Origin: an uncultured Lachnospiraceae bacterium | Lineage (GTDB): Bacteria > Bacillota > Clostridia > Lachnospirales > Lachnospiraceae | DNA length: 64,000 nt | Direction: 5' to 3' | NCBI GenBank assembly: GCA_946405625.1 | Contig: CAMJHQ010000001.1 | Coordinates: 1-64,000 of the forward strand | Shown here: positions 47,754 through 58,974 of the stretch, in pieces | Layout: each line of letters starts with the position of its first letter | Numbering within the stretch: the first letter of the stretch is position 1 | Translations under genes and position numbers: made by a program | The notes under the pieces: generated by a model | Told to the model about the DNA's origin: nothing | Databases searched by the model: none | The model's input: only the letters and a program-made list of their open reading frames with translations

Positions 47754-47782
47754 TTGACAAACGAAGGTGATAGGAGTAGCAT
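47754..47782 (+). promoter_or_regulatory. Promoter candidate of the phosphonate cluster
   Basis: TTGACA (47754-47759) and TAGCAT (47777-47782) are 17 bp apart. The 200-nt leader to the first gene contains small hairpins (TTCATTTT with AAAATGAA, and GATTTT with AAAATC), with no motif I can name. Confidence 0.5.
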
Positions 47783-47982
47783 AGCAAATGTAAGTGTTCA
47801 TTTTCTATTAAATCAACTTAAAAAATGAACGGATTAGTTATTCGGATTTTTGAAAATCTGAGAAATATGTTCATTATCTGCATGATATGAGTAAATGTTT
47901 GATACAAAAATGATGCTTGAATAAGGCAGGATAATACGAAATGGTGCAGAATGATGCAAATCAATCTACAGGAGGAAACAGA

Positions 47983-48879
47983 GTGGAACGGGGATTGACT
48001 GAAAAACAGTTTGATATTTTGGAGAAACTGGCGGGGGCCGACAGTACCCTTTCGCAAAGGGATCTCGAAAAAGCTACGGGATATTCTCTCGGGACTATCA
48101 ATAAGGTAATTAAGGAGCTTTCAGAGCTCGGATATGTTAATAACGGAGAGCTTACGGATGAAGGTCTGAATGCACTTGAACCATATAGGGCAAAACGAGC
48201 AATCTTTATTGCTGCGGGATTCGGTTCACGTCTGGTACCTATAACATTTAATACACCGAAACCACTTGTAAGAGTACATGGCGAGAGAATAATTGATGCA
48301 CTTCTTGATGCGTGTCTTGCTGCAGGAATTGAGGAAATATATATTGTCCGCGGATATCTGGCTGAGCAGTTCGATCAGCTTCTCTATAAATATCCGATGG
48401 TTAAATTCCTTGAGAATCCTGTATATAATGAAGCGAATAATATTTCGAGTTCGCTTGTGGCTAAGCATCTTCTCTCAAATGCATACGTTTTTGAGGCAGA
48501 TCTTCTGATCAGCAACCCGAAGATAATCACAAAGTATCATTATACATCTGATTTTCTCGGAATTAAGGTTGACCGTACGGATGACTGGTGCTTTGATGTT
48601 AAAGATAATGTGATAGTGGAAGAGAAAGTCGGCGGAACTGACTGCTGGCAGATGGTAGGTATTTCTTACTGGAACGAAGAAGACGGCAAGAAACTTGAAA
48701 GTGATATTGCGGAAGTTTATTCGACTCCGGGCGGAAAGGAAAGATACTGGGAGCAGGTTCCGCTTGTATATAAGAAGGATAATTACAGTGTCAGAGTAAG
48801 AGAATGCTTTGCTGAGGATATAGTCGAAATCGATACATTCAGAGAGCTGAAAGCAATAGATAAAACTTATGATGTATAA
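47983..48879 (+). CDS. pntC: Winged-helix domain fused to a LicC/PntC-like nucleotidyltransferase (probable 2-AEP cytidylyltransferase)
   Basis: The 298-residue protein has an N-terminal winged helix (residues about 5-65: LTEKQFDILEKLAG, DLEKATGYSLGTINKVIKEL) and a sugar-nucleotidyltransferase-type domain (about 70-298) with IFIAAGFGSRLVPITFNTPK and PLVRVHGERIID, the nucleotide-binding signature of LicC-type CTP:phosphocholine cytidylyltransferases. A 2-AEP transaminase gene follows by 91 bp, so CTP:2-aminoethylphosphonate cytidylyltransferase (PntC), making CMP-2-AEP for transfer to a glycan or lipid, is the best reading. Phosphocholine is the alternative substrate. GTG 47983 is chosen, seven bases after GGAGG; an ATG fourteen codons upstream lacks a site. 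Confidence 0.75.
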   Translation: MERGLTEKQFDILEKLAGADSTLSQRDLEKATGYSLGTINKVIKELSELGYVNNGELTDEGLNALEPYRAKRAIFIAAGFGSRLVPITFNTPKPLVRVHGERIIDALLDACLAAGIEEIYIVRGYLAEQFDQLLYKYPMVKFLENPVYNEANNISSSLVAKHLLSNAYVFEADLLISNPKIITKYHYTSDFLGIKVDRTDDWCFDVKDNVIVEEKVGGTDCWQMVGISYWNEEDGKKLESDIAEVYSTPGGKERYWEQVPLVYKKDNYSVRVRECFAEDIVEIDTFRELKAIDKTYDV

Positions 48880-48970
48880 AGCTATTTGTCTTACGGAAGA
48901 TCGGGACAAAGAATCGAATAAAGTAAATGAATTTAACTACAAATGATACGACAATACGGAGGTCAGTAAA

Positions 48971-50113
48971 ATGTTTGAAAATATGAGTATTAAAAGAAAT
49001 ATACTTCTTAATCCGGGACCGTCAACTACAACGGATTCGGTTAAGTTTGCACAGATCGTACCGGATATCTGTCCGAGAGAGAAGGAATTCGGCGGACTTA
49101 TGAAGGGACTTCGTGAGGATCTTGTAAAGATAGTTCACGGAGATCTCGATAAGTATACATCGGTTCTTTTCTGTGGATCGGGTACTATCAATATTGATGT
49201 CTGCATCAATTCACTTCTCCCTGAAGGAAAGAAAGTTCTGATCGTCAACAATGGTGCATACAGTACAAGGGCAGTTGAGGTCTGCGAATATTACGGACTT
49301 CCGCATATCAATCTTACATTTCCTGTAGATGAAAGACCTGATCTTGAGGTAGTAGAGAAAACATTTAAGGAGAATCCTGATATCGGACTTGTTCATACAA
49401 CACATAACGAGACAGGTACGGGAATCCTAAATCCTATAAGAGAGATCGGAGCAATTGCTCATAAGTATGGGGCTACATTTACGGTTGATACAACAAGTAC
49501 TTATGCTATGCGCCCTATCAATATCGAGGAAGATAATATAGACTTCCTGATGGCTTCGGCGCAGAAGGGTCTTATGGCCTTTACAGGTCTTTCTTTTGTA
49601 GTCGGAAACAGAGCTATCATTGAGGAGTCTGCAAATTATCCGAAGAGAAGCTATTACTGCAATCTCTTTATGCAGTATGATTTTTTCGAAAGAACAGGAG
49701 AAATGCATTTCACTCCACCTGTTCAGACAATCTATGCAACAATTCAGGCACTTAAGGAATATTGGGCAGAGGGCGAAGAAGCAAAGTGGGCAAGACATAC
49801 AAGAGTCTTTAATGCAATCAATGCAGGGCTTGATGAACTCGGCTTCAAGCAGGTTATAAAGCCTGAGGAAAGAGCGGGACTTGTTTCATCGGCTATCTAT
49901 CCCGATGATCCGAACTGGGATTTTGAGAAGGTACATGATTACTGCTATGATAGAGGATTCACAATCTATCCGGGTAAGATTTCAACAACGAATACCTTCA
50001 GACTCTGCGCGCTCGGTGCCATCGATGAAGATGATATCAAGGACTTCTTCAAGGTGTTCAGAGCGGCACTTGATGAATATAAGGTTCAGGTTCCTATCGT
50101 TTATAACAAATAG
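48971..50113 (+). CDS. phnW: 2-aminoethylphosphonate-pyruvate transaminase
   Basis: The 380-residue PLP enzyme starts with the family motif ILLNPGPSTTTDSVKFAQIV, carries HTTHNETGTGILNPI and the PLP-lysine region FLMASAQKGLMAFTGLSFVV, and ends as a full-length family member. In biosynthetic clusters it converts phosphonoacetaldehyde plus an amino donor to 2-aminoethylphosphonate (the AepZ role). The pepM and decarboxylase genes directly downstream fix this direction; no phosphonatase (phnX) is present, which argues against breakdown. ACGGAGG precedes the ATG by about eight bases. Confidence 0.92.
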   Translation: MFENMSIKRNILLNPGPSTTTDSVKFAQIVPDICPREKEFGGLMKGLREDLVKIVHGDLDKYTSVLFCGSGTINIDVCINSLLPEGKKVLIVNNGAYSTRAVEVCEYYGLPHINLTFPVDERPDLEVVEKTFKENPDIGLVHTTHNETGTGILNPIREIGAIAHKYGATFTVDTTSTYAMRPINIEEDNIDFLMASAQKGLMAFTGLSFVVGNRAIIEESANYPKRSYYCNLFMQYDFFERTGEMHFTPPVQTIYATIQALKEYWAEGEEAKWARHTRVFNAINAGLDELGFKQVIKPEERAGLVSSAIYPDDPNWDFEKVHDYCYDRGFTIYPGKISTTNTFRLCALGAIDEDDIKDFFKVFRAALDEYKVQVPIVYNK

Positions 50114-50169
50114 TATAAATTCGGATTTACAATAGGAATAGAATCTGTGGGAAAAATGAGGAGTGAAAG

Positions 50170-51465
50170 ATGAAGAAAGTATATACATGCTTTTGTACGG
50201 ACGTAATCCATGACGGGCATTTGAATATTTTAAATGAGGCGAAGAAGTACGGACGAGTAATAGTAGGATGTCTCAGTGATAAGGCACTTATAAGATATAA
50301 CCGTTTTCCGACTGTATCTCAGGAGGAAAGAGTAAAGCTTTATCGTTCGCTTGAAGGAGTCGATGAGGTTGTCATTCAGGAAGATATGCTTTATGATGAT
50401 GTGCTTATGCTGATCCAGCCGGACATTGTGATTCATGGTGATAACTGGAAAGAGGGTCCGGAAAAGGCAATCAGAGATCACGTCGAGAAACTCGTAAAGG
50501 GATATGGTGGTGAACTGATCGATATTCCATATACATATAATGAGAAGGTGAAGAAACTGGATCTTCAGCTTAAGGAGAAACTCTCAATGCCTGAATACAG
50601 ACGGAAGAGACTTCGTCAGCTGATAGAGATGACACCGGTTGTTAAGACTATGGAAGCACATTCAGGTCTTACGGGGCTCATAGTTGAGAAGACCGTAGTT
50701 GAGCATGAGGGAAAGCTTGATCAGTTTGATGCAATGTGGGTAAGTTCTCTCTGCGACAGTACAGCAAAGGGTAAACCGGATATAGAGCTGGTTGATATGA
50801 CTTCGAGATTCAGAACTATCGATGATATCATGGAAGTTACAACCAAGCCGATCATTTTTGACGGAGATACAGGCGGACTTACGGAGCATTTCGTATATAC
50901 TGTCCGTTCTCTTGAAAGAATGGGAGTTTCGGCTGTGATAATAGAGGATAAAACAGGTCTCAAGAAGAACAGTCTGTTTGGAACAGAGGTTGAGCAGACA
51001 CAGGCATCAATCGAAGATTTCAGTGAGAAGATAGCTGCCGGCAAGAAGGCTCAGCTTACGGATGATTTCATGATAATCGCTCGTATTGAAAGTCTGATCC
51101 TTGAAAGAGGTATGGAAGATGCACTTGAGAGAGCAGCAGCTTTCGTTAAGGCAGGAGCTGACGGAATCATGATACACAGCAGACGCAAGGATCCGGCTGA
51201 AATACTGGAATTCTGCGACAAGTTCAGAGAGACGGATAAGAAAACGCCTATTGTTGTTGTTCCGTCTTCCTTCAATACAATAACAGAAGCAGAACTGGCA
51301 GAGCATGGAGTCAATATCGTAATCTATGCAAACCAGCTGACCAGATCCGCATTTCCTGCAATGAAGAAGACTGCGGAGGATATCCTGAAGTATCATAGAG
51401 CCAAGGAAGTAGATGACAGACTTATGCCGATCAAGGATATTATAACTTTGATCGATGAGCTGTAG
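50170..51465 (+). CDS. pepM: Cytidylyltransferase-like domain fused to phosphoenolpyruvate mutase
   Basis: The 431-residue protein has an N-terminal GCT-type nucleotidyltransferase fold (residues about 1-130) with the HxGH motif at 14-17 (CTDVIHDGHLNI), and a PEP mutase/isocitrate lyase-fold domain (about 145-431). The mutase motif EDKTGLKKNS (259-268) corresponds to the EDKxxPKxNS signature that separates PEP mutase from lyases, and DGDTGG (231-236) supplies metal ligands. It rearranges PEP to phosphonopyruvate, making the C-P bond. Such fusions are known in other bacteria. The transaminase gene ends 56 bp upstream; GAGGAG precedes the ATG. Confidence 0.93.
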   Translation: MKKVYTCFCTDVIHDGHLNILNEAKKYGRVIVGCLSDKALIRYNRFPTVSQEERVKLYRSLEGVDEVVIQEDMLYDDVLMLIQPDIVIHGDNWKEGPEKAIRDHVEKLVKGYGGELIDIPYTYNEKVKKLDLQLKEKLSMPEYRRKRLRQLIEMTPVVKTMEAHSGLTGLIVEKTVVEHEGKLDQFDAMWVSSLCDSTAKGKPDIELVDMTSRFRTIDDIMEVTTKPIIFDGDTGGLTEHFVYTVRSLERMGVSAVIIEDKTGLKKNSLFGTEVEQTQASIEDFSEKIAAGKKAQLTDDFMIIARIESLILERGMEDALERAAAFVKAGADGIMIHSRRKDPAEILEFCDKFRETDKKTPIVVVPSSFNTITEAELAEHGVNIVIYANQLTRSAFPAMKKTAEDILKYHRAKEVDDRLMPIKDIITLIDEL

Positions 51466-51512
51466 GTATATAACATATAAAATATAGTTAATGATTGGGA
51501 GAATCAGATCAT

Positions 51513-52634
51513 ATGAAAGTTGAGAGACTAGTTGAGATAATCGGTTCGGATTTTTATACGGGAGTTCCGGACAGTCAGCTTAAAGCACTTTGCAATTACC
51601 TTATGAATACCTATGGTATTGATAAGAATCATCATATAATTGCGGCAAATGAAGGAAACTGTACTGCACTTGCAGCGGGATATCATCTTGCTACAGGTAA
51701 GGTTCCCGTAATCTATATGCAGAACAGTGGAGAGGGAAATATAATCAATCCGGTTGCAAGTCTTATGAATGATAAGGTATATGCGATTCCTGCAGTATTC
51801 ATCGTAGGATGGAGAGGTGAACCGGGGATACATGATGAGCCGCAGCATATCTATCAGGGAGAAGTTACGGTTAAGCTTCTTGAGGATATGGATATAGCTA
51901 CATTTATAATAGGCAAAGATACAACAGATGAAGAAGTTGAAGAAGCGATGAAGGGCTTCCGTGATGTCCTTGCAAAGGGCAAGGATGTTGCCTTCGTTAT
52001 CCGTAAGGGTGCGATTTCTTATGATGAGAAAGTAGAGTATAAGAATGATAACGAGATGGTCCGTGAAGAGATCATCAGACATATAGCTGATGTGACTGGA
52101 GAAGATCCTGTCATCAGTACAACAGGTAAAGCCAGCCGTGAGCTTTTCGAGATCAGAGAGGCAAAGGGTGAAAGTCATAAATATGATTTCCTTACTGTTG
52201 GAAGTATGGGACATGCATCATCCATCGCACTCGGAGTTGCGATAAATAAGCCGGATACAAAGGTTTGGTGCATCGATGGTGACGGTGCGGCACTTATGCA
52301 TATGGGAGCTATGGCAGTAGTAGGAGCGAACAGCCCTTCGAATCTCGTGCATATCGTTATCAACAATTCCGCACATGAAACAGTCGGTGGAATGCCGACG
52401 GTTGCCGGAAATGCAAATCTTCCGGTAATAGCTCTTGCGTGCGGTTATAAGAAAGCGGCATCGGTTGACAGCTTTGAGGCACTGGACGCCGCACTTCTTG
52501 AAGCGAAGGAAAGTGATGAGTTATTCTTCCTTGAAGTTAAGTGTTCTATCGGAGCAAGAGACGATCTTGGCAGACCGACAACAACAGCACTCGAGAATAA
52601 AGTAAACTTTATGGAATATCTGAAGACAATATAA
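51513..52634 (+). CDS. ppd: Phosphonopyruvate decarboxylase
   Basis: The 373-residue thiamine diphosphate enzyme has the PYR-domain activating Glu in AANEGNCTALAAGYHLATGK, the VGWRGEPGIHDEPQHIYQG segment typical of phosphonopyruvate decarboxylase, and the PP-domain cofactor motif GDGAALMHMGAMAVVGA...VINN. It converts phosphonopyruvate to phosphonoacetaldehyde, the irreversible step that pulls the mutase reaction forward. ATG 51513 is chosen because GGGAGA lies upstream; a TTG six codons earlier overlaps that site. A terminator follows the gene. Confidence 0.94.
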   Translation: MKVERLVEIIGSDFYTGVPDSQLKALCNYLMNTYGIDKNHHIIAANEGNCTALAAGYHLATGKVPVIYMQNSGEGNIINPVASLMNDKVYAIPAVFIVGWRGEPGIHDEPQHIYQGEVTVKLLEDMDIATFIIGKDTTDEEVEEAMKGFRDVLAKGKDVAFVIRKGAISYDEKVEYKNDNEMVREEIIRHIADVTGEDPVISTTGKASRELFEIREAKGESHKYDFLTVGSMGHASSIALGVAINKPDTKVWCIDGDGAALMHMGAMAVVGANSPSNLVHIVINNSAHETVGGMPTVAGNANLPVIALACGYKKAASVDSFEALDAALLEAKESDELFFLEVKCSIGARDDLGRPTTTALENKVNFMEYLKTI

Positions 52635-52654
52635 TACAATTAAGATAATTGATC

Positions 52655-52690
52655 AGCCCTCGCACAGCAAATTCTGTGTGGGGGCTTTTG
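52655..52690 (+). terminator. Terminator after the phosphonopyruvate decarboxylase gene
   Basis: AGCCC-t-CGCACAG and CTGTGTG-GGGGCT form a stem with small mismatches, followed by TTTTGTG. The next 280 bp (52691-52970) are AT-rich and hold no gene I can support; a TATAAT at 52701 has no matching -35. Confidence 0.75.
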
Positions 52691-52970
52691 TGTTGTTCAC
52701 GTATAATATATGTTGTTTACTCAATTAGCATTTATGCACGAACTGATATTTCATGGATATTCTTACGCATATGGTATGGAGTCAGCTCATTTGCTTCACT
52801 GTTTATGACGAGAGGTGGGATTTGGCTATATCGCAAATACATATAAATATTATGATACAGATATAAAGAATATGATATACGCTCTTAGCCTCAATGTTAA
52901 TATATTATCAGTATATCTTCGTGTAGATATATAAGAAACTCTTCAATCGGAGTATGGAGGAGGAATGGGG

Positions 52971-55010
52971 ATGAGCATTAAAAAATCCAAAAGGATTCTC
53001 GGACTTTTTGCAATACTGATAATGATGCACCATCTGGGTCAGAAGACCTCGGCATTCTGGGTGCCGGAAACCGTAAGACAGCATGGACTTGAGATTTTTG
53101 TTCCGATAGGCTATCTGCTGGTTTCATTTTTCTTCTTTTGTTCGGGCTATGGTCTCGTAAAAAGCATGAGGACGAAAGAGGACTATTTTAAGGGATTTCT
53201 GGTTAAAAGGCTTAACAGAATTCTGTTCGTCTTTCTGGTAACACAGATAATATGGCTGTTTTCTCGTATAGCGAAAGATGCTGTATGGATGCCGTTTAAT
53301 CCGTACTCCTGGTATGTGTATACGATAATTGTACTTTATATAGGATTTTTTCTGATATACAGGAAAGAAAATAAATATTCGCTTTTACTTATGACAGCTT
53401 GGATTCTGGGCTACAGTGCAGTCTGTTATATCATGATAACAGGTAACTGGTGGTATAATTCGGCACTTATATTTGTCCTCGGAATCTATATGGCGGATCG
53501 TGAGAATAAAAAGGACAGAGATATAGATCCGGGAGAAGAGAAAATAAGTAAGAAGAATAAGATAGTAAAGCTGTGCATACTTGCAGTGATTATGATCGCA
53601 GCATTTATCATATCGGAGAATGGTGCAAACATTTATAATCTTCTTCATATGACAAATTATTCTTTGATAAATGCGGTCATAGTTGTACTTCAGATTACAG
53701 CAGGATCCTGCTTCAGTCTGATCGTTTATTACCTCTTGGCAGGGACTGAAGGGAAAGATAACATTTTCAGTAAGATACTTGATTTTTATGGAAGTATGAC
53801 ACTTGAATTCTATCTGATCCACGGGCTGTTCGTTCAGGTTTTCGGACATCATTTTATAAATGATTCAACACCGCCGGTCTGCTATATCAAAAATGTATTT
53901 CTGTATGTGATAGTTGTATTTGCGATTTCAACTGCATCAGCTTTTGTTATAAAGAAAGCGGGAGATATAATTACGGCTTTTTACAAACGCTCCGAGGGAT
54001 TCAAAAAGTTCTGCACCGACCAGAAAAAGCTTGCAAAGATAGTGCTTATAATATTTGCAGTATTTACCGTGTTCCACGGATATAACCGATATAAGAGCTC
54101 CAAGGAAGCTGAGGCTAAACTGGAGGAGTATATAACTGAACTTACATTTGTTTCTGCAGGAGGAACAGAGGTAGCAGCATATGTTGCGGGAGAAGGTGAC
54201 TATACTGTGGTACTTCTGGGAGCGGATGACGATCCATGCTCGACACTATATCTCAGACCGCTGGCAGATAAGTTGACAGATACCTTCCGTGTTGTGATCA
54301 TCGACTATCCGGGGAAGGGCTACAGCAAGGAATCGGATGCTGAAAGAACTGCGGATTTCTATGCGGATACGGTTCATGACACGCTGAATCAGCTGGGTGT
54401 GACCGACAATATCATTCTTTGTCCTACACAGCTGTCTGCCATATATGCATACAGATATATTGAAAAATACCCTGATGGGCTGGCGGGCTTCGTCGGTATA
54501 GACGCGGTTGTGCCGGGAATAGCTAAGCGATTCCTGGACGGAAATTACAGTTCAGTGGATGAGTACAGATGGTTTATGAAGAGGATGAAGCGTCTTGATA
54601 CCATAAAGCAGACAGCACTTGTTGTCACGGGTTATATAAACTTTCAGTTCCCTGTATATGACTACCTGTTCCATGGCAGCGGAATGAAGGAATATTATCC
54701 GGTTATGGAAGAAATGCATGTAAGAAGATATATGCGTGACGGTCATCTCGAAGAAGTGGGAAATGTGTATGATAACTGTATGGTAGTTGACGGATATAAG
54801 CTTCCTGCAGATCTTCCTGCCGTATTTCTTCTGGACAACTATATAAAATCGAATGAGCTTTACGGACTTAACTGGGAAAATGAATATAAAAAAATGATCA
54901 CGGACTCCGAGAAGCAGACAATTACAATACTGGATGGAAATCCATATGTGATTTATTATAATCCGTCTGTTATCGCGAAGCTGATAGATGAGTTTATTGC
55001 CGGTAATTGA
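52971..55010 (+). CDS. Membrane acyltransferase-3 domain fused to a degenerate alpha/beta-hydrolase domain
   Basis: The 679-residue protein has an N-terminal acyltransferase-3 (OafA-like) part with about ten helices (residues about 1-350; start RILGLFAILIMMHHLGQ, FFFFCSGYGLV, and YLIHGLFVQVF). A soluble alpha/beta-hydrolase-like domain (about 375-679) follows with VVIIDYPGKGYS and LAGFVGIDAVVPG. The position of the nucleophile elbow, normally GxSxG, reads CPTQLSA (484-490), so the catalytic Ser appears replaced by Gln487 and the domain may be non-catalytic. It may O-acylate a surface glycan. GGAGGAGG lies seven bases before ATG 52971. Membership in the phosphonate cluster is by proximity only. 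Confidence 0.8.
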   Translation: MSIKKSKRILGLFAILIMMHHLGQKTSAFWVPETVRQHGLEIFVPIGYLLVSFFFFCSGYGLVKSMRTKEDYFKGFLVKRLNRILFVFLVTQIIWLFSRIAKDAVWMPFNPYSWYVYTIIVLYIGFFLIYRKENKYSLLLMTAWILGYSAVCYIMITGNWWYNSALIFVLGIYMADRENKKDRDIDPGEEKISKKNKIVKLCILAVIMIAAFIISENGANIYNLLHMTNYSLINAVIVVLQITAGSCFSLIVYYLLAGTEGKDNIFSKILDFYGSMTLEFYLIHGLFVQVFGHHFINDSTPPVCYIKNVFLYVIVVFAISTASAFVIKKAGDIITAFYKRSEGFKKFCTDQKKLAKIVLIIFAVFTVFHGYNRYKSSKEAEAKLEEYITELTFVSAGGTEVAAYVAGEGDYTVVLLGADDDPCSTLYLRPLADKLTDTFRVVIIDYPGKGYSKESDAERTADFYADTVHDTLNQLGVTDNIILCPTQLSAIYAYRYIEKYPDGLAGFVGIDAVVPGIAKRFLDGNYSSVDEYRWFMKRMKRLDTIKQTALVVTGYINFQFPVYDYLFHGSGMKEYYPVMEEMHVRRYMRDGHLEEVGNVYDNCMVVDGYKLPADLPAVFLLDNYIKSNELYGLNWENEYKKMITDSEKQTITILDGNPYVIYYNPSVIAKLIDEFIAGN

Positions 55011-55063: not shown

Positions 55064-56983
55064 TCAGAATCCCAGATTATGCATATGCATAGAGTCCATG
55101 ATCTTATGAATTTTTTCTTTTTCGGCATACATATATTTGTCTGCACGGTTAATATAATCTTCTATGGTTCCTTCGTCGTGAGGCTCGATTATGGCATAAC
55201 CGATACTTGCATGCAGCATAAATGATAGATTCAGCGATTTGAATTCGGCACTCATAGAATCCGATAATTTTTTTATAAATCCCGGGATTTCCTCAGGCGG
55301 TGGGCAGGATCCGACGGCTATAAATTCATCACCGCCATATCTTCCGAAAAGCCAGTCGTTCGGAGAATGTTTTTTGAAGGCTTCAGCAGTGGCCTTAATG
55401 GCAAAGTCTCCGTTGAGATGGCCGTATACATCGTTGATGGTCTTCATACGATCGATATCTGCGAAAACAAGTATAGAACGTTTGTTGTTTTCTTTCTGAG
55501 TGTTTATATATTCATACAATATCTTTTCACAGCCTGTTCGGTTATAAATGCCGGTCAGTGCATCATTCATATATATCTGTCTCAGTTCGTTGTTTGTCTG
55601 TACCGAGAAGATATGTCCGCGCATGCTGAAAAGCAATGCATTCAGATTACTTATATACTTATATAATCCTGCATTATAGAGAAGGTCGGGAGTATTTTTG
55701 ATCGCAACATACCCTATAATGAAATTCAGATAATTGAGCGGGGCGAATATATAAAGGTTGGATTCGCCTTCTTTATGCGTATATCCGGGATATAATTCCC
55801 GTGAATCAAAATGTCCTTTGGTCCGCTTTTCTTTGTTCTTTAATTCATACAGAATATCCATATTTGAACTGTAGCCTCTGATCCGCTGAGGATATTCATC
55901 ATCGGTCAGCTCAAAAAACTCCGGCTCTGTACAGATACAGTACTCCGGTCCTAAATTCGGATGATCTCTCAGATCCTTAAATCCTTTATTATAGAAATCA
56001 TCTTTGGAGGTGGCCAGTGAGAGAGGAATCTGCATGCGAAGAAAAGAGATATCCATCAAGCTTTTCTGCAGATTGTCAAAATACAGATTCTGTATTTTCT
56101 TAAAACGATTCCGCTCTGCTTCGTCTGATGCCGCACAGCCGCAGCTTTCGCAAGGAATGAAAAAAGAATCATATACATCCAGAAATCTTTCATCTGGATG
56201 TGCTATCTGATACATAAGTTTATCATAAGCCTTTTCGCCGAAACTGTCCCATCCTCTTGATACCGTAGCGAGGATCGGAAATGTGCACTGGCTGTCCTTG
56301 ATCATATCAAATCCTGTTACGATAACGTCTTTCGGAACATTTAAACCGTGAGAGGAAAGGGAAGAACATATTCCGAGAGCCATATGGTCATTTGCGCATA
56401 CTACGGCATCGGGAAGTTCTTTTTCCGAATCCAGATATTCATTCATATTGTGAAATGCACTGAAAAAACTAAAATCGCAGTTTAATTCATTAAATAACTC
56501 CAAGCCTTTTTCGGCGAGAACGTCGATAACCGCCTGACGTCTTGCGGCATTTTCGACATTTCCTTCTATTCCGTTAACATACATGATCTTCTTGACATTG
56601 TGATGTGAATAAAGATGCTGAGTGAGATCATAAACACCTTTATAATTTTCACTTTTGATGCATGACATATTCGGAACTTCAATCTCCAGAGACAGCATAG
56701 GAACTCCGGCACGCTGAAAACGTGCGCATACGCGTTCGCCTTCATCGGGAAAGTTGTATGTATTGGTGAGCATTATTGCACCGTCGAAATCTGCAGGATC
56801 GGGCAGGTGAAACAGGTTGAGCTGACATTTGTTCTGCAGATCCGGAGATATCAGACTGCAATAAGACACAAAAACGAAGATATCGATTCCGTCCTGCCTG
56901 GCTCTTTTCTGCATACCTGAAACGACATATTCTATAAATTCATTACTAAATCCATTTGCAAATACGGCAATTCTATTATTCAT
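55064..56983 (-). CDS. Cytoplasmic sugar-binding-like sensor with GGDEF diguanylate cyclase domain
   Basis: The 639-residue protein has no signal peptide or membrane helix. Residues about 1-270 form a LacI-type periplasmic-binding-like domain (RIAVFANGFSNEFIEYVVSG, PDAVVCANDHMALGICSSL, DVIVTGFDMIKDSQC); a middle region is unassigned, with a CESCGC segment. Residues about 470-639 are a GGDEF domain with intact YGGDEF (550-554) and DALTGIYNRTGCE. It should make cyclic di-GMP in response to a small ligand. ATG 56983 is preferred because AAAGGAG precedes it; the longer frame has no such site. It points away from its neighbours and is probably monocistronic. Confidence 0.9.
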   Translation of the reverse strand: MNNRIAVFANGFSNEFIEYVVSGMQKRARQDGIDIFVFVSYCSLISPDLQNKCQLNLFHLPDPADFDGAIMLTNTYNFPDEGERVCARFQRAGVPMLSLEIEVPNMSCIKSENYKGVYDLTQHLYSHHNVKKIMYVNGIEGNVENAARRQAVIDVLAEKGLELFNELNCDFSFFSAFHNMNEYLDSEKELPDAVVCANDHMALGICSSLSSHGLNVPKDVIVTGFDMIKDSQCTFPILATVSRGWDSFGEKAYDKLMYQIAHPDERFLDVYDSFFIPCESCGCAASDEAERNRFKKIQNLYFDNLQKSLMDISFLRMQIPLSLATSKDDFYNKGFKDLRDHPNLGPEYCICTEPEFFELTDDEYPQRIRGYSSNMDILYELKNKEKRTKGHFDSRELYPGYTHKEGESNLYIFAPLNYLNFIIGYVAIKNTPDLLYNAGLYKYISNLNALLFSMRGHIFSVQTNNELRQIYMNDALTGIYNRTGCEKILYEYINTQKENNKRSILVFADIDRMKTINDVYGHLNGDFAIKATAEAFKKHSPNDWLFGRYGGDEFIAVGSCPPPEEIPGFIKKLSDSMSAEFKSLNLSFMLHASIGYAIIEPHDEGTIEDYINRADKYMYAEKEKIHKIMDSMHMHNLGF

Positions 56984-57177
56984 GCAGTTCTCCTTTAAGA
57001 TGACCTGTTGCGATAACATGATTATAGCACGATTTTGAAAGAATACATATGATGTTATAAAATGTACAAGTATCTTTTAAATTATATGTCATTTTTGTTG
57101 GATTTTCAGAGAGAAAGAAGAAATTGATTGTGATATAATAATCGAGTTTGTTATTTGTAAACGGAGGAGACATATAA

Positions 57178-58974
57178 ATGAAATTCAGAAGTAAGAATGC
57201 TTTAATCATCGCAGCATCCATGAGCCTTTTGATGGCGGGCTGCGGAAAGAGTAACGAGGATACCGCCGAGTCAGGCAGAATGAGTCCGGAGCCGGAAACT
57301 ACGGTTGAAACGACAGAAGTAACAACAGAAGAAGTAACGGCAACTCCTGAGGATGCTGCACAGACCGCACAGGGAGAAGCACTCATGGCAAAGCTGAAGG
57401 AGCTTGTTGATACAATGGGTGTTGCGAATGTCGGTACATTTGAAGGAAAGGCTATTCCGGCAGAGGATAAAAAGCATTGGGAGAGCGTAGATTTCGGTTA
57501 TGCCGGAAAGGGTATTCTCTCTGTTGATTTTCCGGGAGAGAACGGAAATCTGATGCTTGTTTACTATATAGGTGATGATACAAAGATAAATGTATCCTTA
57601 TATAAGGAAGAGGGTTCAGAGGCAAAGCTTGTTGCCGATATGCCGCTCTCATACAAAAATGTTTATGACAGAGATATTGATTTCACAGCATCAAATGCAA
57701 GTGCACTTAAGTTCGGTACTGAGGGTATTACAGATGCGGCGGTTATAGAGAAAGCGGGAGAGCTATATCTGATAACAGAGGATAATAACTGGTTTGTATA
57801 TGATCAGGAGAAGAAATACTACAGTGACCGCGAGAAGTTTGTGACAGCTGATTCTATATATCATGGAGATTTTGCTATATATAAGATTACAGATAATGGC
57901 TTTGAAGGACAGTATAAGATTATGTTTTACTGCTACGGAATGGATGGCATGGGAAATATAACTCTTTCGGATTTTTCGAATAAACACCTTCAGGAGTATC
58001 GTTTTGGAGATCTCGGAGAGAATGAGATCCGTGTAGAACATTTCATGGAATATTATAATCCGATGATCAGTGAGATCGGATTTGCAGAGCTTACAAATGT
58101 GGATGAGAAGAAGCTTTCAACAGACGGCGTACTGGGTGAAAAAGCATCATGGAAGCTTCACTGGGATTGTAATACAGAAATTGAAAAGGGTGACGATGCA
58201 GTAAGGCTTGAAGTAGCTGATGCAACTGCATCAAACAAGGATTGGTTGAATGTTGTTCCGGGTGCAAAGGAAGCACGTGAGGCAAAACCTGCTACTCCGG
58301 CAGATGCGGCAAAAGAAGTGCAGCCTGTAAGCGGAGATTCTGTAGAGAGATATGCTGCATTCTTCACTGACGAGTATCCGACTCTTGATGATGAGCTTTA
58401 CCTTTCGACAAATAAAGTAGCTGCAAAGTATGCTTATTCGGATCTTGACGGAGACGGAGCAGATGAACTCCTCATCGGAGATAACGACGGTGTATTTGCA
58501 GTTGTAACTGAAGAGGCAGGTGAATATTTCGTAACAAGAGTATGCGGATGGATGAGACAGTATGGTGCAGTGTCTACACCTTATCTCGGAAACGGATGCT
58601 TTGCAACTTCTGTTAATAACGGAAACAATTACGGAGGCCCTTTCCGTGAGGATCATCTGCTTAAATATGATTCAAAGCTGAAAGGCTGTGGCGTAGTGGC
58701 ATGGCTTACATCATCATGGGATCCGAGCAACCTTGATGAAAATCTGAATTGCTGGGATCTTTATACAGCAAATGATGAGACAAATATCGCGCTGTCTGTC
58801 CGTGATGATGAATCGCTCTATACACATGATTATATTGATTATGGAAAAAATTACGAATTTGACAGCGATGGAAATCTGGTGAAGAATGATCTTATGAACA
58901 AGTTTGATGAACTGGTTGCAGCACATACTGTAGAAGGTGCAATGGGAACCATCAGCTGGAATGATATAAACTAG
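57178..58974 (+). CDS. Large lipoprotein of unknown function with Ca-binding-like repeat
   Basis: The 598-residue protein has a lipobox (SLLMAGC, Cys near residue 22) and a Thr/Glu-rich linker (ETTVETTEVTTEEVTATPED), then two beta-rich regions split by an Ala/Pro/Lys stretch near residues 362-380. The C-terminal part contains YSDLDGDGADELLIGDNDG, an FG-GAP/EF-hand-like Asp-rich loop that may bind calcium. I do not recognise the family. GGAGGAG precedes the ATG. A possible terminator follows at 58983. It shares its divergent upstream region with the GGDEF protein gene. Confidence 0.82.
   Translation: MKFRSKNALIIAASMSLLMAGCGKSNEDTAESGRMSPEPETTVETTEVTTEEVTATPEDAAQTAQGEALMAKLKELVDTMGVANVGTFEGKAIPAEDKKHWESVDFGYAGKGILSVDFPGENGNLMLVYYIGDDTKINVSLYKEEGSEAKLVADMPLSYKNVYDRDIDFTASNASALKFGTEGITDAAVIEKAGELYLITEDNNWFVYDQEKKYYSDREKFVTADSIYHGDFAIYKITDNGFEGQYKIMFYCYGMDGMGNITLSDFSNKHLQEYRFGDLGENEIRVEHFMEYYNPMISEIGFAELTNVDEKKLSTDGVLGEKASWKLHWDCNTEIEKGDDAVRLEVADATASNKDWLNVVPGAKEAREAKPATPADAAKEVQPVSGDSVERYAAFFTDEYPTLDDELYLSTNKVAAKYAYSDLDGDGADELLIGDNDGVFAVVTEEAGEYFVTRVCGWMRQYGAVSTPYLGNGCFATSVNNGNNYGGPFREDHLLKYDSKLKGCGVVAWLTSSWDPSNLDENLNCWDLYTANDETNIALSVRDDESLYTHDYIDYGKNYEFDSDGNLVKNDLMNKFDELVAAHTVEGAMGTISWNDIN

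Follow-up and report, generated by a model that had tools for sequence, protein, structure and literature searches.

A predicted operon for 2-aminoethylphosphonate (2-AEP) was analyzed in a 64 kb stretch of DNA (the window) from the genome of an uncultured Lachnospiraceae bacterium (97.8% complete, ∼3.3 Mb). Its genes pntC, aepT, pepM and ppd are co-directional (47983-52634) and probably direct the synthesis of 2-AEP activated with cytidine monophosphate (CMP-2-AEP), with PntC regulating its own operon through an upstream inverted repeat and the head group being transferred to the surface by an enzyme coded elsewhere. PepM would convert phosphoenolpyruvate (PEP) to phosphonopyruvate, Ppd would convert this to phosphonoacetaldehyde, AepT would aminate the aldehyde to 2-AEP and PntC would combine 2-AEP with cytidine triphosphate (CTP) to give CMP-2-AEP, each step being assigned from family membership. 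The winged helix of PntC would bind the repeat GTTCA-N25-TGAAC and repress the operon, the signal probably being a ligand of the PntC catalytic domain (CTP, 2-AEP or CMP-2-AEP). Delivery of the head group to a glycan or lipid of the surface would fall most likely to a PF04464/YidC-sulfatase protein pair coded on contig C41 and less likely to a LicD protein.

An initial annotation of this stretch had placed four enzymes of a 2-AEP pathway on one strand. This was borne out by the models TIGR02320, TIGR03301 and TIGR03297, which were all matched above cut-off (Table 1), and family membership of PepM, Ppd and AepT likewise supports 2-AEP as the product. The PepM motif EDKXXXXXNS is present, the Ppd and AEP transaminase genes adjoin the PepM gene, and by its gene families the core is a phosphonyl-tailoring (Pnt) pathway of known kind (PMC6697681). 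The enzymes of that annotation stood, but the winged helix on PntC, the PF01467 domain on PepM (a second cytidylyltransferase domain) and the inverted repeat had been overlooked. Its pntC start at 47983 was upheld over the longer open reading frame (ORF) at 47941 because AGGAGG lies seven bases 5′ of the GTG. Many relatives of ppd align from residue 7 onward and the true start of this gene may be the ATG at 51513.

Table 1. Predicted features of the pnt operon and its flanks (window coordinates).
Feature	Coordinates	Strand	Evidence
Predicted sigma-70-type promoter, TTGACA, 17-nt spacer, TAGCAT	47754..47782	+	10/12 consensus matches; promoter-like matches in the stretch not clearly above shuffles
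Inverted repeat GTTCA-N25-TGAAC, 35 bp, predicted operator	47796..47830	not applicable	Downstream of promoter
pntC, MarR-type winged helix + LicC/PntC cytidylyltransferase	47983..48879	+	GTG start, AGGAGG at 47970-47975
aepT, 2-aminoethylphosphonate aminotransferase	48971..50113	+	TIGR03301 445 bits, cut-off 361
Fom1-like cytidylyltransferase domain of PepM fusion	50170..50604	+	PF01467; 5x3d E 4e-27; HxGH kept, GISSTR missing
Phosphoenolpyruvate mutase domain of PepM fusion	50605..51465	+	TIGR02320 416 bits, cut-off 320 (gene 50170-51465); EDKTGLKKNS
ppd, phosphonopyruvate decarboxylase	51495..52634	+	TIGR03297 463 bits, cut-off 313
Terminator-like hairpin between ppd and acyltransferase gene	52655..52686	+	13 pairs, 8 G-C, T-rich tail

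Relatives were compared at 111 pepM loci, a number that counts the window and its second copy; many lie on short stretches, and gene presence was scored by tblastn. The named loci are those of the best 80 named PepM relatives among the matches listed, 80-97% identical to the window PepM. A family sample of 299 genomes was matched at E <= 1e-30 for PepM and PF04464.

No transferase for CMP-2-AEP had been seen in the window. This was correct, as matches to LicD, PF04464-type and YidC-sulfatase proteins all lie on other contigs of the genome. A PF04464-type transferase (N-terminal segment LYIDPGTGSMLF) recurs beside pnt genes in relatives; the L040 relative scored 45 bits against PF04464 (cut-off 22.1), profile matches in the PDB include Cps3D (E 1e-6) and TarL (E 0.002), and the copy of this genome is 62% identical to that of L040. 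Its partner is a protein of ∼910 residues that joins a YidC domain to a region with weak sulfatase matches. PF00884 was matched by the L058 copy (25.7 bits, cut-off 25) and not by the L040 copy, and matches of the fusion profile to PDB sulfatases were weak (best E 2.5e-4). Asp487, Thr524, Asp783 and His784 (L040 numbering) are invariant in the alignment and would, by analogy with LtaS-type enzymes, be metal/nucleophile residues.

Each gene of the pair was present in 17 of the 80 named loci, with PF04464 copies counted from 49% identity upward; those of L067 and L113 are more distant. PF04464 matched 21/299 family genomes, of which 15 (E < 1e-100) were kept. These carry 17 PF04464 loci, 15 of them with an adjoining YidC-sulfatase gene, and PepM, LicC/LicA-like genes or (one) a nucleotidyltransferase-CobD/HisC fusion occur in 11 of the 17 stretches; two more have a TagD-like gene. 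PepM or lic-type genes were present in 14/15 genomes with the PF04464 gene vs 89/284 without (p 2e-6), and PepM alone in 6/15 vs 26/284 (p 0.002). Each gene has a single strong match in the genome under study, and the two matches adjoin each other on C41, with other genes around them. The missing transferase is probably the PF04464 protein paired with the YidC-sulfatase-like fusion. The surface destination of 2-AEP, as first proposed, is supported by analogy and by the neighbour genes.

Several points weigh against this assignment. Throughout the comparisons the rows are related to each other, and some sample genomes duplicate named ones (the contigs of G261 and L051 are both of 443,840 bases). 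The genomes left out of the PF04464 count (G086, G196, G251, G257, G290 and G294) include three with PepM, and the lic query was taken from beside the pair in G219, slightly favouring the co-occurrence count. The C41 pair lies on another contig than the pnt operon and no repeat was found upstream of it. Its donor could be CDP-choline (cytidine diphosphate-choline), CMP-2-AEP or both, and CDP-choline could be supplied by the lic locus of the same genome on contig C13, which comprises a LicC-like gene, a winged helix-turn-helix (wHTH)-LicC-LicA gene, a BCCT transporter gene and a LicD gene. LicD was also found within the stretch at 15/80 named loci, nearly as often as the pair.

The last count bears on the foremost alternative, that 2-AEP is transferred from CMP-2-AEP by a LicD protein in place of the PF04464/YidC-sulfatase pair. 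LicD-like genes near ppm are named in the available text of PMC6697681 and this genome has three LicD genes (C13, C26 and C62). However, the C13 gene sits within the lic locus, those on C26 and C62 are without an adjoining pnt gene (the short C62 has a weak cytidylyltransferase-like match beside LicD), and the genes of the pair are about equally frequent near pepM. Transfer by LicD is the less likely course, and the C41 pair is kept as the candidate. PF01066 CDP-alcohol transferases were uninformative, since the two in this genome are paralleled by matches in 14/14 control genomes. The fusion protein at L144:7269-9071, which joins a nucleotidyltransferase to a CobD/HisC-type pyridoxal phosphate enzyme, adjoins a PF04464/YidC-sulfatase pair and may activate another amino-alcohol phosphate.

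PntC matched nucleotidyl transferases, and its winged helix (residues 18-66 of the longer ORF) matched MarR_2 and HTH_24 above the Pfam cut-offs. PntC occurs in the family both with the winged helix (∼300 aa) and without it (∼235 aa). The window repeat is the sole N25-26 match in the 64 kb (0.08 expected). It starts 13 bp past the end of the -10 hexamer, with TAGCAT beginning 19 nt before it; in relatives a TANNNT hexamer begins mostly 12-15 nt ahead of the repeat.

GTTCA-N25/26-TGAAC was present upstream of 29/52 wHTH-PntC genes, with a mean of 0.18 and a maximum of 1 in shuffles at the wider spacing of 18-34. The spacing upstream of these genes was N25 in 22 pairs and N26 in 8, with 6 pairs for all other spacings from 5 to 49 together. 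An N24-26 repeat was found anywhere in the stretch at 36/51 wHTH-PntC loci vs 2.95 expected from shuffles (n = 51; L047, in which pntC is cut, was dropped), at 0/9 loci with only the short PntC (0.7 expected) and at 0/19 without PntC in the stretch (0.55 expected). The Fisher test for 36/51 vs 0/9 gave p 9e-5. The repeat stands before pntC in 28 of the 36 loci, before aepT in 6 (L046, L062, L063, L070, L071 and L110), before a permease gene at the head of the operon in L078 and before no gene in L101. Counted by gene, the pair of half-sites was upstream of aepT in 6/50 cases, of ppd in 0/45 and of pepM in 0/59.

The author selected a second set of 40 regions from other genomes, lying upstream of wHTH-LicC-LicA genes and their like and mostly top-ranked among the matches listed. 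The repeat was present in 30/40 of these wHTH-LicC/PntC upstream regions, with a spacing of 24 in 22, 25 in 7 and 26 in 1; other spacings within 5-49 accounted for six pairs. N25/26 alone gave 8/40, where shuffles averaged 0.04 and reached at most 2. Three stand-alone wHTH cytidylyltransferases are included, L203 with the repeat and L201 and L202 without. Searching the genome under study with the strict pattern gave 4 sites in 3.3 Mb vs one in the backwards control. The site on C13 overlaps the ribosome-binding site and start codon of the wHTH-LicC-LicA gene; those at C1:120301 and C33:25536, both inside ORFs, were taken as chance.

The motif [SA]LGx[VIT]N is missing from 5/51 wHTH-PntC proteins, and the repeat was lost in 4 of these 5 vs 11 of the 46 others (p 0.02). 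The winged helix of PntC probably reads the inverted repeat, because the repeat tracks wHTH-PntC loci, recurs in the second set and is lost with an unusual recognition helix; PntC would then probably be a regulator of its own operon in the manner of NadR. Binding is expected to repress since the repeat lies just past the expected transcription start. Against these conclusions, the exact repeat is absent from 15/51 wHTH-PntC loci, the spacing of 24 was admitted post hoc after the second set had been seen, the motif was picked after the sequences had been viewed, and the choice of repression over activation comes from repeat position alone.

The repeat might instead be read by another regulator coded elsewhere, the winged helix of PntC being a leftover, and other wHTH proteins could share the site. 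This is judged unlikely, as the repeat tracks wHTH-fused cytidylyltransferases in both pnt and lic settings, tends to vanish with an unusual recognition helix and was found in 0/28 named loci without wHTH-PntC (∼1.3 expected by chance, a count weak alone). Reading by the PntC winged helix is preferred. An RNA hairpin was not favoured, the spacing being nearly fixed; the half-sites are invariant by construction of the pattern. In L062, L063 and L070 a GTTCA-N25-TGAAC pair lies 29 bp before a LicD ORF; these sequences are related and the pair may be due to chance. Fusions of a winged helix with LicC-like and LicA-like domains, in NadR-like order, were observed in L147, L148, L151 and at C13:53869-55563 of this genome. 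They are frequent across the family and would put the same combination of enzyme and regulator to use for choline.

The cytidylyltransferase domain fused to PepM has the Fom1 domain as its best structural relative (5x3d, E 4e-27). HxGH was present in 114/114 rows (110 distinct sequences) and HG[DN]xW in 112/114. IS[ST]T was present in 0/114, with a conserved stretch like PYTYNEKVKKIDLQLREKLAMP in its place, and the window protein has PYTYNEKVKK where Fom1 has GISSTR. In a phylum-wide sample the domain occurs on 13/16 PepM proteins, with ISST in 0/13 and one near-match, GVSITQL. The fused domain could be without activity, serve as a CTP sensor, or act through other residues. A working activator that yields a second CMP-phosphonate such as CMP-hydroxyethylphosphonate, as in Fom1, would fit the structural match and the two kept motifs; the absence of IS[ST]T from both sets of sequences and the lack of a recognised hydroxyethylphosphonate gene in the operon make this improbable.

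The closest solved structure to PntC is S. pneumoniae LicC (1jyk, E 8e-26), followed by Tde-PntC (6pd1, E 6e-10). The signature GXG(T/S)RX4-8PK (consensus per PMC6697681) is present as GFGSR-LVPITFNT-PK. According to the available text of PMC6697681, the residues close to the amine are Glu104 and Glu196 in Tde-PntC, with Asp105 and Asp192 in LicC. Window PntC has Glu at both positions, the first placed by the Tde-PntC and LicC alignments and the second by LicC alone. Among named pepM loci the pair is Glu/Glu in 49/60 PntC-type enzymes and Glu/Asp in 11/60; it is Asp/Asp in pneumococcal LicC and in the LicC-like gene on C13. The wHTH-LicC-LicA protein of this genome has Pro at the first position (YIIPCD, by eye), and in other genomes, where LicC domains adjoin LicA-like kinases, the pair is Ser/Glu or Cys/Glu. 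The LicC-like enzyme of the lic locus L158 has Glu/Asp, which tells against a strict rule. These residues are best read as a leaning rather than a clean divide, and operon context weighs more.

Identity as PntC rather than LicC is supported, because of the operon order and Glu at both positions, the separate LicC-like gene of this genome being Asp/Asp. The initial proposal that the 47983 product activates 2-AEP with CTP is supported. That it is a LicC making CDP-choline, placed beside 2-AEP genes by chance, is very unlikely: LicC is the nearest solved structure, wHTH-LicC enzymes are common in the family and the L158 enzyme also has Glu at the first position, but the gene is the first of an operon that continues with aepT, pepM and ppd, many loci keep this order, the residues are Glu/Glu and not Asp/Asp, and the genome has its separate lic locus on C13.

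The pathway was first described as biosynthetic and this is supported genome-wide, where PhnJ (C-P lyase) gave no match and phosphonatase TIGR01422 gave 36 bits at best (cut-off 220), a score level where 14/14 control genomes match too. AEP transaminases also serve 2-AEP degradation, and PhnW models match AepT with scores below or near their cut-offs, but PepM and Ppd run the opposite way and neither degradative enzyme was recovered above cut-off, so degradation of 2-AEP by the pnt genes is scarcely credible.

The operon was taken to end at ppd because a hairpin follows this gene and the acyltransferase gene is absent from other loci. Hairpins in the stretch numbered 4 vs 2.8 expected from shuffles. 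The initial annotation had added a membrane acyltransferase to the system. The gene is real (52965-55010, with a PF01757 match and weak alpha/beta-hydrolase matches), but its place in the pathway was rejected: it lies beside pnt genes in 0/109 other loci, many of those stretches being short, and downstream of the terminator-like hairpin. It adjoins a gene on the opposite strand (55064-57019) for a sugar-binding-protein-like sensor fused to a GGDEF domain. The neighbours at 57178 (lipoprotein-like) and 59185 (ATP-grasp) were in no gene cluster spanning at least 4 loci, and no RNA families or tRNAs were found in the window.

The genome has a single PepM. PepM of the window type is patchy, matching 32/299 family genomes, and was not found in the one genome of the same genus in that sample. 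Rumen and other gut genomes are the main source of the 80 best named relatives; their labels include Lachnospiraceae, Oscillospiraceae, Selenomonadaceae, Erysipelotrichaceae and Spirochaetota. Across the 111 loci, ppd was found in 96, aepT in 87 and pntC in 74. Spirochaetota and Bacillota are not cleanly split in the PepM tree (2 changes each), and transfer is possible. In the phylum-wide sample 16/398 genomes passed the PepM cut-off, two of the 16 being loci already counted.

Other cluster types were observed among the pepM loci. In L080, L084, L101, L103 and L104, and also L076 and L079, the block is without AepT and has the PepM fusion and Ppd with several of metallophosphoesterase-like and epimerase-like genes (both by eye), DUF6564 and a saccharopine-dehydrogenase-like gene (Pfam); it may make another phosphonate. 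L062, L063, L070 and L071 (Saccharofermentans among them) have two PepM-type proteins, one of ∼765 aa, with LicD in three of the four stretches. In L087, L093, L095, L098 and others an amino-acid permease gene (PF13520 in L087) lies between pntC and aepT. In L045, L048, L049 and L083 (labelled Oscillospiraceae) arrays of ∼540-aa paralogues lie downstream of pepM and ppd.

The tailoring steps after C-P bond formation are called enigmatic in the available text of PMC6697681. With a candidate transfer pair and a candidate operator, experiments on both this missing chemistry and its control become feasible in gut bacteria, including cultured ones such as Schwartzia succinivorans DSM 10502 (L046), whose locus has the repeat, the pair and a LicD. 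Among the matches listed from open-licence papers nothing was found on the PF04464/YidC-sulfatase pair, the repeat or helix-fused LicC/PntC, and the main text of a survey of phosphorylcholine genes (PMC10434233) does not mention helix, YidC or glycerophosphotransferase. More tentatively, LicC/PntC cytidylyltransferases of gut Clostridia could form a large NadR-like class that reads GTTCA-N24-26-TGAAC for both choline and 2-AEP, with the CMP-activated head groups feeding a common two-protein exporter-transferase. In it, the PF04464 protein would attach the head group to a membrane lipid; the YidC-sulfatase fusion would flip this lipid and, through its conserved Thr and Asp-His, hand the head group on to a surface polymer. 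This joint proposal is speculative and less likely than not. Phosphocholine decoration within the family would come under the same type of regulator.

Known systems resemble the window in different parts. Pnt clusters share PepM, Ppd, AEPT and a LicC-like cytidylyltransferase with it, and PntC activates 2-AEP with CTP in them (PMC6697681). The same paper gives 23.6% of PepM as fused to PF01467, and the clusters of its Fig. 3c have a fused plus a separate nucleotidyltransferase. The terms helix-turn-helix, regulator and glycerophosphotransferase are absent from its main text, and neither an operator nor a PF04464/YidC-sulfatase partner is described in the available text. Fom1 of fosfomycin synthesis carries a cytidylyltransferase domain ahead of PepM, as in the window, where the domain lacks the second CTP signature GISSTR. 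NadR joins a helix-turn-helix, a nicotinamide mononucleotide adenylyltransferase and a ribosylnicotinamide kinase, and that of Salmonella is a repressor dependent on nicotinamide adenine dinucleotide, as described in the available text of PMC7221760. The likeness is of a DNA-binding domain on a nucleotidyltransferase, which PntC has, with a kinase in addition in wHTH-LicC-LicA. NadR belongs to other domain families and another pathway than PntC, and regulation by PntC is a prediction. The Lic-1 phosphocholine pathway (LicA, LicC and LicD) likewise activates a small zwitterionic head group with CTP. It differs in that choline is taken up and phosphorylated, whereas in the window 2-AEP would be made from PEP; wHTH-LicC-LicA fusions have the same repeat upstream as window pntC.

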